The notes under the pieces are model-generated. The model saw only the letters and a program-made list of their open reading frames with translations, had not been told where the DNA came from and ran no database searches. The position numbers were made by a program, and so were the translations under genes. Source: a virus. From it: a stretch of DNA of 64,000 nt. The stretch is taken from IMG/VR virus record IMGVR_UViG_3300011261_000157, positions 1 through 64,000 of that record; one strand, 5' to 3'. Shown here in pieces: positions 5,811 to 26,621 of this stretch (positions are counted from its first letter, which is position 1; each line of letters starts with the position of its first letter).

Positions 5811-6641
5811 ATGACCATTGAAGTTAATCTGTATGAATTTTTGATGCGCCAGCGTCCGATATGTACTCAATTCCCCTTGACTAAGGAATTAGGCGAAGAT
5901 TTTAAGGAGCTGCGACTCAAGTATCGTGCAGAGTTGGGATTTGATCTATTTGATGGTCGCTGCGGCAATACCTTCAACTGCTTAGTTGCGGATTCATGCG
6001 TAGGTAGGCCGTTCCCTAAGGACCCTTTAGTACATAAGTACTTGGAATCATTGAATGTTACTATTACCGACGGAGTATACAAGGGAGTTGATGTCTACTT
6101 GGCCAAGCCATTACTAGACTGCTCTGAGTGTCCCTTTAAGACCGTCTGTGATGAGCCTTGTCTAACCCATAAGTCCTACTACTCAAGACGAATCAACCCC
6201 TCTAGGGAACCTAGGGATGAGGATCTAGTAGATTATCAGCTTTGGGAGGAGGGTGTGATACGCCTTAAACAGATGTACGAGGTAGAAGAGTGCCCTCAAG
6301 GTGAGTGGCTAGATGATGAGCTGGCTTGGGATTGCTTAAGTCCTAGGCAGCGGGAATGCCTACACATGAATCTAATCCAAGAGATCAACCACGAAGATAT
6401 AGCCTACAGTTTGAATATAAGTAGGCAGGTTGTATCACAACATATATCAATTGCTACTCAAAAGATAACAGAATTCTCAAAAGCACGTAAGATATTGAAA
6501 AGACAAACTAACCCATCTCAGAGAGCCATTAAGTACTACAGATTAGGCATGACTCAGGTGGAAATAGCCGACCAAGAAGGGGTTAGTCAGCAAAGTATCT
6601 CCAACTACATCTCAAAATGGAGAAAATCCAATAATATCTAG
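5811..6641 (+). CDS. Helix-turn-helix regulator with sigma-region-4-like domain
   Basis: The product has 276 residues. Around 102-116 lies a four-cysteine cluster (CSECPFKTVCDEPC), a possible metal site. Around 180-220 the run LSPRQRECLHMNL...HEDIAYSLNISRQVVSQHI has the layout of sigma70 region 4 or LuxR-like HTH. A second HTH (MTQVEIADQEGVSQQSIS) is at about 247-265. It is the last gene before the structured non-coding stretch and the packaging/head operon, so it is a candidate activator of late transcription. That role is inference. An alternative is a terminase-linked DNA-binding protein. Confidence 0.7.
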   Translation: MTIEVNLYEFLMRQRPICTQFPLTKELGEDFKELRLKYRAELGFDLFDGRCGNTFNCLVADSCVGRPFPKDPLVHKYLESLNVTITDGVYKGVDVYLAKPLLDCSECPFKTVCDEPCLTHKSYYSRRINPSREPRDEDLVDYQLWEEGVIRLKQMYEVEECPQGEWLDDELAWDCLSPRQRECLHMNLIQEINHEDIAYSLNISRQVVSQHISIATQKITEFSKARKILKRQTNPSQRAIKYYRLGMTQVEIADQEGVSQQSISNYISKWRKSNNI

Positions 6642-6696: not shown

Positions 6697-7066
6697 GACA
6701 TGCAGGTTGTAAACAGGCTGCCTAATGTCTAATGTATATAAGCACTGGTACGAGTGTATAAGACTTAGACCGACTGCAAGGAGGGCTAAGTCGCAGGATG
6801 AGTCTCATAAGAGACGAATCCAGCCGGCTAGAAACCTCTATAACCATCAATAGTGTTCGACTAATCATTACTAAGTATAGGTTAGAACACACCTGCTAGC
6901 TACGAGATAGCATACGAACGAGCAGGGAAAGGTTAGAGAAGTGCAGGCGAGTGAGTATGCATGTAGAGCTTGCCATAACGCAATAAAGATTCATATCTAA
7001 GGATCAAGGGTTCTCCTCCAACTCTACCTTAGGTTATGAGGGGTCGGGTGTAAAAGCTCGGCCCCT
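6697..7066 (+). ncRNA. Candidate structured non-coding RNA
   Basis: The stretch 6642-7085 has no gene but a dense series of hairpins: GACATGCAG/CTGC..ATGTC (6697-6729; its TTGACA could instead be a -35 box), GACTTAG/CTAAGTC (6762-6792), GGAT-GA-GTCTC/GAGAC-GA-ATCC with tandem G-A steps (6796-6821), GTGTTC/GAACAC (6853-6890), CCTGCT/AGCAGG enclosing GCTA/TAGC (6892-6926), and a ten-pair hairpin with GTAAAA loop (7040-7065) as a likely 3' end. Exact ends are not determined. It lies directly upstream of the packaging genes. Confidence 0.55.
7040..7066 (+). terminator. Hairpin at the 3' end of the non-coding stretch
   Basis: GGGGTCGGGT (7040-7049), loop GTAAAA, GCTCGGCCCC (7056-7065): ten pairs including G-U. 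Only a short TT follows, so it may be an RNA 3' end or processing element rather than a strong terminator. Confidence 0.5.
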
Positions 7067-7085
7067 TCCAATATAAAGAGGACTT

Positions 7086-7238
7086 ATGATCTACCCTAAA
7101 GGACTACCCGATAACCTTAGGGCTGAGTATGATAAGTATATGCGCGATCCGAAACGGTACGTTAAGTTATACCCAGTCATCCACAAGATATTATCTAAAT
7201 ACTTAGGAGTGCCTAATGGCAAAGAAAAAGGTAAATAA
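7086..7238 (+). CDS. Hypothetical protein (50 aa)
   Basis: ATG at 7086 with AGAGGAC upstream. Begins MIYPKGLPDNLRAEYDKY and ends in NGKEKGK. The last 23 bases overlap the next gene in another frame. Its place immediately ahead of the terminase genes suggests a packaging-related accessory role, but nothing in the sequence proves it. Confidence 0.6.
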   Translation: MIYPKGLPDNLRAEYDKYMRDPKRYVKLYPVIHKILSKYLGVPNGKEKGK

Positions 7239-7458
7239 GGGACTTACAAATAGTTCAGACATTAAGCTTAAACAGGTTAAGAAGAAGCCTAAGCCTAAAG
7301 CGGCCAAGGTAGAGGACTTATCCCCTAAAGCCAGCAACAAAGACAGCCTGACTGACAATATCAAGTCTAGGTCTAGCAAAGCCATTAAAGGTGGTGAGCT
7401 GGGAAAGACAAGTCGAGTGCCTCTAAGTCAGAAGCTGGACATAAAAAAGAAGAAGTAA
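7216..7458 (+). CDS. Lysine-rich leader protein, zero-frame product (80 aa)
   Basis: TTAGGAGTG precedes ATG 7216. The 80 residues are very basic (MAKKKVNKGL, VKKKPKPKAAK, final KLDIKKKK). The gene ends at TAA 7456-7458 just after the heptamer A AAA AAG (7443-7449). The -1 frame is open from 7398 through the small terminase, so this product is probably both a free basic protein and the amino part of a frameshifted terminase small subunit. Lysine-rich extensions suit DNA binding. Confidence 0.65.
   Translation: MAKKKVNKGLTNSSDIKLKQVKKKPKPKAAKVEDLSPKASNKDSLTDNIKSRSSKAIKGGELGKTSRVPLSQKLDIKKKK
7443..7449 (+). other. Candidate -1 ribosomal frameshift site A AAA AAG
   Basis: In the zero frame ATA AAA AAG AAG AAG TAA; the heptamer has the X XXY YYZ form of efficient bacterial -1 slip sites such as that of dnaX. 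Seven bases after the heptamer the zero frame stops. A small GCCC/GGGC hairpin follows (about 7459-7476). Confidence 0.65.
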
Positions 7459-7652
7459 GCCCATTCACAACGGGGCAAGCTCCTATAGCTAAGAACCTTA
7501 AGATACTTAATGATATTAAGGCTAAAGGACTTAGCAAGCAGCACGAGGCCACTCAGATAAGACACCAACTATCAGCTTATGCATCAGGTAAGTGGGATCT
7601 CACGCAGGATATCCTACTTGACATAGATGTAGCCGGTGTAATTAATGTAAGT

Positions 7653-8048
7653 ATGGGAAATCAGGCAGTTCCTTACTCTTGTCCTAAGATGCTAGAGCTA
7701 GCAGAACAGGAGATAAGAGAAAGGTTCAAGAATGAGCCCGAGCTGATGGAAATAGTAGTCGAGGTTCTGCCGGGCGTTAAAACCCTACAGCGCTGGATTA
7801 AGCGTCAAGACTGGAAAGAAGAAGTCGAGAAGAGACTTAAAGACGGTAATCTATTTTCAATGGATAAGAGAGCTAGAGTAATCAGTATGGTATTTAACCG
7901 TGCAGTTAACGATCTGGACCTCAAAGCCGCAGAAACTTACTTAAAGCTATCAGGCGACCTAACCAACAAACCTCCTCAAAAGGACAAAGGTTACGAAGCT
8001 TATCAAGAACTAGCTGAATCACTAATCAAAAAGAACATAGATAAGTAA
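7653..8048 (+). CDS. terS: Terminase small subunit
   Basis: The product helps the packaging motor recognise DNA and load the large subunit. Visible: PYSCPKMLELAEQEI, a predicted DNA-binding segment VLPGVKTLQRWIKRQDW, and the C-terminal helix DLKAAETYLKLSGDLTNKP typical of terminase small subunits. ATG 7653 is the only standard start in frame but has no ribosome site. The same frame is open and coding-like back to 7449 (for example LSKQHEATQIRHQL). The full protein is therefore probably made by -1 slippage from the lysine-rich gene at 7216. Confidence 0.7.
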   Translation: MGNQAVPYSCPKMLELAEQEIRERFKNEPELMEIVVEVLPGVKTLQRWIKRQDWKEEVEKRLKDGNLFSMDKRARVISMVFNRAVNDLDLKAAETYLKLSGDLTNKPPQKDKGYEAYQELAESLIKKNIDK

Positions 8049-8129: not shown

Positions 8130-9689
8130 ATGTCGGATGAATATAATCTGCCAGGGAAACCTTTGCGACTACAAGAGTTTGATTTCATTAGCTTTACCAA
8201 AGAGCTATATGATAAGAACATCAAATTCACAGACGGTAGACGTGTCGGAGAGGTGATCATCGACGGAGTACCTCAGTTCATAGGTCTCAGTCAAGGTCAA
8301 CAGGAAGTAGTAGCGAGTCAAGCCCGTTTCAAGGTCTTGGCCGCAGGTAGACGTTTCGGTAAGACTAAGATATGCGTACTGCTAGCCCTAGCTGCTATGA
8401 TGATGCCTAACAGGCTCGTTATTGTGGTGGGTCCAGAACACGCTCACGTCGAGAAGGTCTTCAAAGAGCTATACTACATCATAGTAACTCAGCTAAAGTG
8501 GGTCAACAAAGGCACCGGAGAAGGTACCATTGCTAGAAACACTAAGGGTGACTATGTAATTCAAATGAGAAACGGAAGTCGAGTAGAAGGTAAATCAGGA
8601 ACGAACCCCGATTCAATCGCGGGTGACGCTGTTGACTTATATATCTTCGACGAAGCCGGTCTTGAAGATAACTTAGATGATCTATGGGGAATTGCCGAAC
8701 CAGCTTTGGCCGATAACCTAGGATCAGCCATATTCATTTCTTCTCCCCGAGGCAGAAATGATTTCTATAAGTTATACAAACTAGGTCAGAAAGGCATAGG
8801 TCAGACGAAAGGGTATATACCTCTAACTGAAGCTACCGATATGACTGATTGGGCGAGTTGGAACTTCCCCTCTTACGCTAATCCATTTATCCCTAGAAGT
8901 GAATACGAAAGGGCTAAGAGAACGGCTATAGAGAAGGGTAAGTACGAGAAGTTTAAGCGAGAATGGGATGCTGACTTTGATGCAGTAACCGATGTGGCCT
9001 TCCCTGAGTTTAGGGCTTTCAAGAAAGAACTAGACGACAAAGGACAAGAGATCCACGCTCCTTACCACGTTCAACATTACACGTTCAATCCCGCTAACGG
9101 CCCATGGTTCGCAGCTTGCGATTTCAACATTGCCCGTCCAGCTTCCACGGTCTACCTTCAAGTAGATCGTAACAACAACGTAATAATATTCGATGAGTTA
9201 TTCAAACCTAGCACAGACGCTAAGCTACAAGCTCAGTTCATCTTGGAAAAGCAAGAGGAATTGGAAGTCCCATACACCGCCGTAATTGGAGATGTGTCGG
9301 GAAGCTTCAATAGAGCTGGGGTAAATGAATTCACCTTGATGGAAGGAGTCTTAGGTCACGCACCTTACGCCCAACGTCAATCAAGGGACTCAGGAAATCA
9401 CCTACTGCATCAAATGTTAGCTGTACCTTACTTAGACAGTCAAGGTAAGTTGATATATGATGAGTTAGGCCAACACAAGACTTACCCCAAGTTATTCATC
9501 TCTAGTAACTGCGTAGAAACTATATATGCTTTCGAAGCAGCTAAGAAGAAGATGAGTAAGGACGGGTCGATCAAAGACGACTACGTAGAGTTCAAAACAG
9601 GCCATGAAGGTCTGTTAGATGCTGTTAGGTACGCGTTAGTGGCGATATTCAAAGAAAGACAAGGAATGCAGGTTATTAAAGGCTTATAA
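8130..9689 (+). CDS. terL: Terminase large subunit (ATPase/nuclease packaging motor)
   Basis: 519 residues. The ATPase domain shows Walker A AAGRRFGKT (71-79), Walker B VDLYIFDEAG near 170, and a SSPRGRNDF coupling-type segment near 210. The RNase H-like nuclease domain shows ACDFNIARPAS and GDVSGSFN with the expected acidic residues. It pumps DNA into the prohead and cuts concatemers, docking on the portal encoded at 11003. A ribosome site GGAGG precedes the ATG. Length and motif order are normal for the family. Confidence 0.93.
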   Translation: MSDEYNLPGKPLRLQEFDFISFTKELYDKNIKFTDGRRVGEVIIDGVPQFIGLSQGQQEVVASQARFKVLAAGRRFGKTKICVLLALAAMMMPNRLVIVVGPEHAHVEKVFKELYYIIVTQLKWVNKGTGEGTIARNTKGDYVIQMRNGSRVEGKSGTNPDSIAGDAVDLYIFDEAGLEDNLDDLWGIAEPALADNLGSAIFISSPRGRNDFYKLYKLGQKGIGQTKGYIPLTEATDMTDWASWNFPSYANPFIPRSEYERAKRTAIEKGKYEKFKREWDADFDAVTDVAFPEFRAFKKELDDKGQEIHAPYHVQHYTFNPANGPWFAACDFNIARPASTVYLQVDRNNNVIIFDELFKPSTDAKLQAQFILEKQEELEVPYTAVIGDVSGSFNRAGVNEFTLMEGVLGHAPYAQRQSRDSGNHLLHQMLAVPYLDSQGKLIYDELGQHKTYPKLFISSNCVETIYAFEAAKKKMSKDGSIKDDYVEFKTGHEGLLDAVRYALVAIFKERQGMQVIKGL

Positions 9690-25534: not shown

Positions 25535-25687
25535 ATGTACTTCACAGTGTTATTCTTACCTGAGCTACCACATACGCCTCCCAAGACTCAATATGAGTAC
25601 GTATGTGGAGGAGCCTACACTCAGCCTTACGCCACAAACAAATATATGATATTCTGGATAGGACATTACCAATTAACTGTATTCTAA
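25535..25687 (+). CDS. VF-tail microprotein (50 aa)
   Basis: ATG abuts the preceding TAA. Starts MYFTVLFLPELPHTPPKTQ, ends HYQLTVF. Fourth of a tandem run of VF genes. Role unknown. Confidence 0.75.
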   Translation: MYFTVLFLPELPHTPPKTQYEYVCGGAYTQPYATNKYMIFWIGHYQLTVF

Positions 25688-25701
25688 GACATGGAGGAAA
25701 G

Positions 25702-26442
25702 ATGTCTAAATTTACACTCCCAAACGGAGTAACCGTAAACGACAAACACTACGCTTTAGTAGAGATTGACGAGCTTAGGGGAAAGCATCAAAACATGCTG
25801 GTAAACCCCTCACCAAAGACTCCAATTGATTTCGTACTCCCTATCTTGACTGATCTGGTAATCGACATCACCAATGCCGGCGGGGAGTCAGTAATGTCGG
25901 AACTAGACAAGAAGTCAGTACTACTACATAAACTACCTATTCAAGACGTACAGTTCATCATGACCAAGGTAAGAGAAGTATCCTATGGTAAAGATTACAT
26001 GATGAAGCTTAAATGCCCTCACTGTAGTGCGTCTAATAATGCTAAGCTAGATCTATCAACCTTGGAAGTATTTCCACGTAAGGATAGCCTAGCTGAAGAT
26101 AAGATGATCCTTCCTAAAGACGGACTAGAGTTTAGATACGGCCATATGAGCTTATCTAACCTACTTAAGATGGCCACGGAAGATGAGTCTGCTGACTTCA
26201 TGAAGCACATCGTAACAGCTACTACATCATTCATGTTATCTAAATTAGGAGACTCAACTGAAGTCAAGCCTAGTGATCTAGATGAATTGAAGGCTACTGA
26301 CATAGACTTCTTGAAGGATAACATACCAGAGTTAGCTTCTATTGATCTTAAAGTGGAACACACATGTACATCATGCAGTGAGGATTTCGAGCAGGAGTTA
26401 CCCGTACTGGCGGCTGATTTTTTGCTCCATTCGAGGACTTAG
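25702..26442 (+). CDS. Tail assembly chaperone, zero-frame product (246 aa)
   Basis: ATG 25702 with GGAGGAAAG; a longer frame upstream is only the shadow of a VF gene. Features: FVLPILTDLVIDITNAGG, a four-cysteine zinc site split between CPHCS (about 110) and CTSCS (about 230), and helices between. The plan matches T4 gp26/gp51-type baseplate-hub chaperones. The gene sits just before the tape measure, and its last codons contain T TTT TTG (26418-26424), where a -1 shift would add 66 residues as in the G/GT chaperones of other phages. Confidence 0.75.
   Translation: MSKFTLPNGVTVNDKHYALVEIDELRGKHQNMLVNPSPKTPIDFVLPILTDLVIDITNAGGESVMSELDKKSVLLHKLPIQDVQFIMTKVREVSYGKDYMMKLKCPHCSASNNAKLDLSTLEVFPRKDSLAEDKMILPKDGLEFRYGHMSLSNLLKMATEDESADFMKHIVTATTSFMLSKLGDSTEVKPSDLDELKATDIDFLKDNIPELASIDLKVEHTCTSCSEDFEQELPVLAADFLLHSRT
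26418..26424 (+). other. Candidate -1 ribosomal frameshift site T TTT TTG
   Basis: Zero frame GAT TTT TTG CTC; the heptamer has the X XXY YYZ form. Zero frame stops 18 bases later, while the -1 frame stays open to 26621. Confidence 0.7.
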
Positions 26443-26621
26443 TTAATAAGAACTACGTTCCTCACTATGATCAAATAGTATCAGATATGCAATTCTTAGC
26501 TGAACACTTCAGTTGGGGGATTGATGACTTTAACAGTATGACTTGGCGTATGCGTAAGGAACTAATGCAGTTCCATATGGATGTGCTTGAAGAAAGGAAG
26601 AAACCACGTGGAAACAGTTAG
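26424..26621 (+). CDS. Tail assembly chaperone, frameshift extension
   Basis: Reading in the -1 frame from the T TTT TTG site continues APFEDLVNKNYVPHYDQIVS to EERKKPRGNS and TAG at 26619-26621, adding 66 residues. It has no start codon with a ribosome site near its beginning. Internal residues (YVPHYDQIVSDMQFLAEHF, MTWRMRKELMQFHMDVL) look like genuine helical protein. It corresponds to the T part of GT-type chaperones that bind the tape measure. Confidence 0.65.
   Translation, partial: APFEDLVNKNYVPHYDQIVSDMQFLAEHFSWGIDDFNSMTWRMRKELMQFHMDVLEERKKPRGNS

Follow-up and report, generated by a model that had tools for sequence, protein, structure and literature searches.

In phage tail assembly, −1 frameshifting takes place in the lambda G/GT pair at G GGA AAG and in the P2 E/E' pair at T TTT TTG, and in E. 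coli dnaX it takes place at A AAA AAG, with an upstream Shine-Dalgarno (SD) sequence and a downstream hairpin. The G GGA AAG heptamer is highly shift-prone in E. coli (PMC5009743), and an SD sequence 8–11 bases upstream stimulates −1 shifting, while one next to the E site reduces it (PMC6321510). Among terminases, recoding by bypassing has been proposed for Streptomyces phage Hau3 (PMC5009743), and the small terminase of Bacillus phages Sam46 and Sam112 carries an N-terminal FtsK_gamma domain (PMC8190038). A sequence-only reading of the locus discussed here had put forward a terminase made by frameshifting as a case with no precedent known to it; in the literature searched we found no small terminase expressed by −1 frameshifting, but the Hau3 proposal had already brought recoding to a terminase gene.

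Here, we describe a phage locus in which the frame of a putative small terminase (TerS) lacks the ordinary start codon of its relatives and may be entered by a −1 slip. The window, the whole stretch of 64,000 nucleotides that was analysed, comes from a virus record of 68.6 kb (IMGVR_UViG_3300011261_000157, positions 1 to 64,000) and belongs to a phage that, by its homologues of tail sheath, baseplate wedge and tail tube, is contractile-tailed.

Layout of the terminase locus

The TerS frame lies directly upstream of the large terminase gene (TerL) in a packaging-head operon, an order that the relatives keep, and its beginning overlaps the final 60 bases of a lysine-rich ORF whose 3' end reads ATA AAA AAG AAG AAG TAA. 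The features are as follows:

7216–7458, + strand: lysine-rich ORF, 80 aa, with a good SD sequence ahead of its ATG at 7216
7388–7397, + strand: SD-like sequence AAGGTGGTGA within the lysine-rich ORF, −12.1 kcal/mol with the anti-SD
7395–7397, + strand: TGA, last stop of the terminase frame, which is open onward from 7398
7398–8048, + strand: TerS frame, with clear homology to relatives from about 7500 and an invariant tryptophan at 7593–7595
7399–7401, + strand: CTG in the lysine-rich frame, a possible start whose distance from the SD-like sequence (11) is usual for this phage
7401–7407, + strand: in-phase slippery heptamer G GGA AAG, the best candidate for a −1 slip
7443–7449, + strand: in-phase slippery heptamer A AAA AAG, a possible second-chance site or incidental
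7456–7458, + strand: TAA, stop of the lysine-rich frame
7653–7655, + strand: ATG, earliest standard start codon in the terminase frame and almost certainly not where TerS naturally begins
8130–9689, + strand: TerL, 519 aa (phrog_2, E 3.7e-38)

Both heptamers lie where the two frames are open, between the TGA at 7395 and the TAA at 7456. As the sequence-only reading had reported, A AAA AAG lies in the phase needed for a −1 shift, and the −1 frame, which runs without a stop from 7398 to 8048, offers no ATG, GTG or TTG ahead of the one at 7653. That ATG is codon 85 of the open frame and has no purine-rich ribosome site before it. The reading had overlooked the second in-phase heptamer, G GGA AAG. 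Stop-codon readthrough into TerS was rejected, as the lysine-rich and terminase frames differ, and so was a start at ATG 7510, which is in the wrong frame and lacks an SD.

Ahead of the terminase operon, about 400 bases (6700–7080) hold no convincing gene and have no Rfam match; in this interval another contig of this virus (3300011259_000041) departs from the window at 17 positions, close to that contig's end. The protein encoded at 5811–6641, just ahead of the late genes, has a sigma-70 region 4 domain, with a second helix-turn-helix after it, and is a possible late-gene regulator. Neither tRNA genes nor Rfam matches were found in the window.

A second candidate −1 frameshift lies at 25603–26621, where the closing part of a baseplate-hub-like gene (25603–26442; phrog_150) contains an in-phase T TTT TTG (26418–26424); the −1 frame (26418–26621, beginning FFAPFEDLVNKNYVPHYDQ) is coding-like, has no early start and lies just upstream of the tape-measure gene. 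A short motif resembling TGGCGGTGTTTTAATGG has many copies in the window (24019, 25358, 26770, 26978, 29924, 33378, 33557, 36005, 40700, 49666 and 59502, among other sites), which often sit at the 3' ends of small ORFs whose products end in ...LAVF or ...VF, ahead of the following start.

A putative small-terminase family and its N-terminus

Relatives were gathered by scans with TerL alignments and then with a TerS alignment, which gave 24 TerS homologues, including one nearly identical pair; the TerL of the first group of relatives is about 40% identical to that of the window. Alignment-based scans were needed to reach them, as exact-word scans with the window's TerS, TerL, MCP and tape-measure proteins returned a near-identical contig only, or nothing, and no relatives closer than the 24 were found. 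In bacterial and archaeal genomes the scan gave only two distant TerL matches, of which the one checked is without this TerS. INPHARED phages likewise gave distant TerL matches only and none encodes this TerS, and the TerS of Rhizobium, Pseudomonas and Stenotrophomonas phages with a related TerL have no detectable homology to that of the window.

The window's TerS frame aligns with all 24 relatives (E 4.8e-33 for a nominal 40,000 sequences, with a profile built without the window). The assignment of this family to the small terminases rests on its position, the family neighbourhood and weak profile and fold matches, namely to phrog_24579 ("terminase small subunit") in 3 of 25 family members (best E 0.0023) and, as the best match in the PDB, to phBC6A51 (E 0.26, probability 0.80). 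The tryptophan upstream of ATG 7653 is invariant in all 25 TerS, and the part upstream of 7653, taken by itself, scores 10.4 bits against the relatives' profile, where the best of 2000 shuffles reaches 9.0. Because this part outscores every shuffle and holds the invariant tryptophan, the start of the conserved protein lies well upstream of 7653; and because the 24 relatives share these upstream residues, ATG 7653 can almost certainly be set aside as the natural start, in agreement with the sequence-only reading.

How the relatives start TerS

Each of the 24 relatives has its own TerS start codon, an ATG (GTG in one) inside or adjoining the upstream basic gene, which puts the invariant tryptophan at residue 29–51. 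In six of them (L010, L093, L118, L119, L134 and L146) TerS starts in a TAATG overlap with a Zn-ribbon/lysine-rich gene and in six others (L122, L124, L128, L136, L139 and L148) 31–76 bases inside the small basic gene, and the frame relation of the upstream gene to TerS varies. Among these 25 loci, only the window is without a TerS start. No usable −1 heptamer was found in the 24 relatives, none needs a frameshift, and the combination of heptamer and overlap is not conserved among them; relatives with an uninterrupted frame and no heptamer, which the sequence-only reading had counted against a frameshift, are in part what we found. Since none of the relatives needs it, frameshifting, if it occurs, would at most be private to the lineage of the window phage.

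A small Zn-ribbon protein with a lysine-rich tail and two CxxC-like pairs adjoins TerS in most relatives (L010, L092, L093, L094, L118 and L122, among others) and has no counterpart in the window. Comparison of the window's lysine-rich gene with the relatives' small basic gene (HMM E 0.33) does not establish homology, and the layout is alike.

Codon usage and the likely point of frame change

The 85 codons before ATG 7653 are coding-like, with a score of +23.7 log units, the largest such case on the + strand. This bears out the coding-like sequence that the sequence-only reading saw there, but the signal begins at 7398 and not at A AAA AAG. The lysine-rich frame is coding-like up to 7397 (+18.0); over 7398–7455, by codon usage learned from 35 other genes, the terminase frame scores +7.9 and the lysine-rich frame −1.2, values that rest on 19 codons of one lineage, and among 1164 coding windows whose −1 frame is open, none has a comparable reversal. 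Placing the change point at 7398 gives the best total, 42.3, versus 35.2 at 7443. With the window's codon table applied to those relatives that have the small basic gene, the overlap gives +5 to +11 for the TerS frame and −4 to +0.4 for the tail of the basic gene. This common signature suggests that translation of the window's terminase, too, probably begins near 7398–7407 and that the lysine-rich tail and the A AAA AAG within it are probably incidental.

A candidate recoding site at 7388–7407

The SD-like sequence that ends just before the change point is exceptionally strong: the strongest of 37,378 internal 12-mers in the other genes reaches −12.2 kcal/mol. The phage's usual distance from this SD register to a start is 10–14, mostly 11 or 12, and a distance of 11 falls on CTG 7399, at whose last base G GGA AAG begins; a −1 slip on this heptamer leads directly to the terminase frame. 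G GGA AAG is a heptamer of the lambda G-T type; it has one other in-phase occurrence in about 13,200 positions, and its chance given the encoded residues is 2.7% (0.8% for both heptamers jointly). Its spacing from the SD-like sequence is 3–9 bases, depending on the pairing register, as against a stimulating range of 8–11 (PMC6321510), and because of this spacing the SD-like sequence may be an old terS ribosome site.

The best single explanation for entry into the terminase frame is, in our estimate, −1 recoding at G GGA AAG, with a probability of roughly 0.45. In place of the start codon that relatives have here, terS would be entered at 7398–7407 by ribosomes that slip −1 on this heptamer, with whatever efficiency, and the SD-like sequence would help the slip or supply the ribosomes. 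These could be elongating from the lysine-rich gene, which would yield a 277-aa fusion whose N-terminus is basic, or could start anew at CTG 7399, which would yield about 216 aa; a basic extension on TerS is not assured, as a product begun at CTG 7399 would lack it. Some unshifted ribosomes could be caught by A AAA AAG downstream. A fuller proposal, which we advance only tentatively and consider doubtful as a whole, is that TerS is made solely through the −1 frameshift at G GGA AAG and its SD cassette, where A AAA AAG would offer a further opportunity to slip; the cassette would have replaced the relatives' start codon and would tie the output of the packaging enzyme to translation of the small basic protein, part of which would become a DNA-binding N-terminus.

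Alternative explanations

The main rival, which we hold to be unlikely, is that an ordinary terS start, overlapping the lysine-rich gene, is masked by a one-base indel at about 7398–7407, which would be either an assembly error or a genuine recent mutation. The defect would sit exactly where the start is expected from the 24 relatives, all of which have one, and the SD-like sequence, its spacing and the codon signature fit a normal overlapping start. Against this, contig 3300011259_000041, which comes from another sample, is identical to the window over 7381–7460; the two differ by three SNPs in 6.7 kb, with no indel in the region and a single, synonymous difference in the lysine-rich ORF (position 7371). 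The site also has no long homopolymer, and with the indel reverted an ATG would still be absent.

That the terminase is reached by a recoded or otherwise non-standard entry, as the sequence-only reading proposed, seems to hold, but its choice of A AAA AAG as the site finds no support, with entry apparently about 45 bases earlier, at G GGA AAG and its SD-like sequence. A −1 slip at A AAA AAG alone would give a 277-aa fusion entering the terminase frame at 7449, and this classic strong heptamer is in phase, 6 bases ahead of the stop TAA and the only in-phase copy in about 14,400 codons of the genes examined; yet given the encoded KKKK tail and the phage's codon usage it has a 28% chance of arising, no unusually stable structure was found downstream of 7449 (z −2.07 versus shuffles, ordinary versus the phage's own coding sequence), no SD lies at a useful distance upstream, and from 7398 the terminase frame looks coding while the lysine-rich frame ceases to, so that we consider it improbable. 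TerS might instead initiate independently at a near-cognate codon past the lysine-rich stop, best at ATA 7485, which has GGGG 9 bases upstream (SD-like match of −5.0 kcal/mol) and would place the tryptophan at residue 37, inside the relatives' range, or at ATA 7503, which aligns beside the Met of relatives. AUA start codons are, however, very rare, and such a start would leave both the coding signal over 7398–7484 and the strong SD at 7388 unexplained, which makes it quite improbable. Far less credible still is a short form of 131 aa from ATG 7653: this is the sole standard start codon in the frame, but it has no SD, would drop the N-terminal region and the tryptophan common to all 24 relatives, and follows 85 codons that stayed open and coding-like.

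Under either outcome, recoding or indel, the analysis defines, with its true N-terminus, a putative small-terminase family that is without counterpart among the collected phage isolates. If recoding at G GGA AAG is correct, this would be the first small terminase expressed by −1 frameshifting found in the literature searched, and a switch from a normal start codon to recoding of which many relatives keep the other state; if an indel is the cause instead, the locus is a warning that a single missing base can mimic recoding.

Comparison with known systems

With lambda G/GT and P2 E/E', the window phage has in common the kind of heptamer, the direction of the shift, the two overlapping phage genes and the one fusion product that would result. 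Those cases, however, are found in tail chaperone genes and persist across families, whereas the candidate described here concerns a small terminase and is common to no relative. E. coli dnaX likewise has an SD sequence upstream of its slippery heptamer, but its spacing of 8–11 (PMC6321510) differs from the 3–9 found here, no strong hairpin lies downstream here, and the favoured heptamer is a different one. In Hau3, too, recoding has been proposed in a terminase gene; there, it is bypassing tied to a UUA codon in another phage group, and here a candidate −1 slip. Finally, if the fusion is made, the window's TerS would resemble those of Sam46 and Sam112 in having an extra N-terminal DNA-binding part, which in these Bacillus phages is a known domain joined in frame by simple gene fusion, unlike the candidate frameshift fusion of the window phage.
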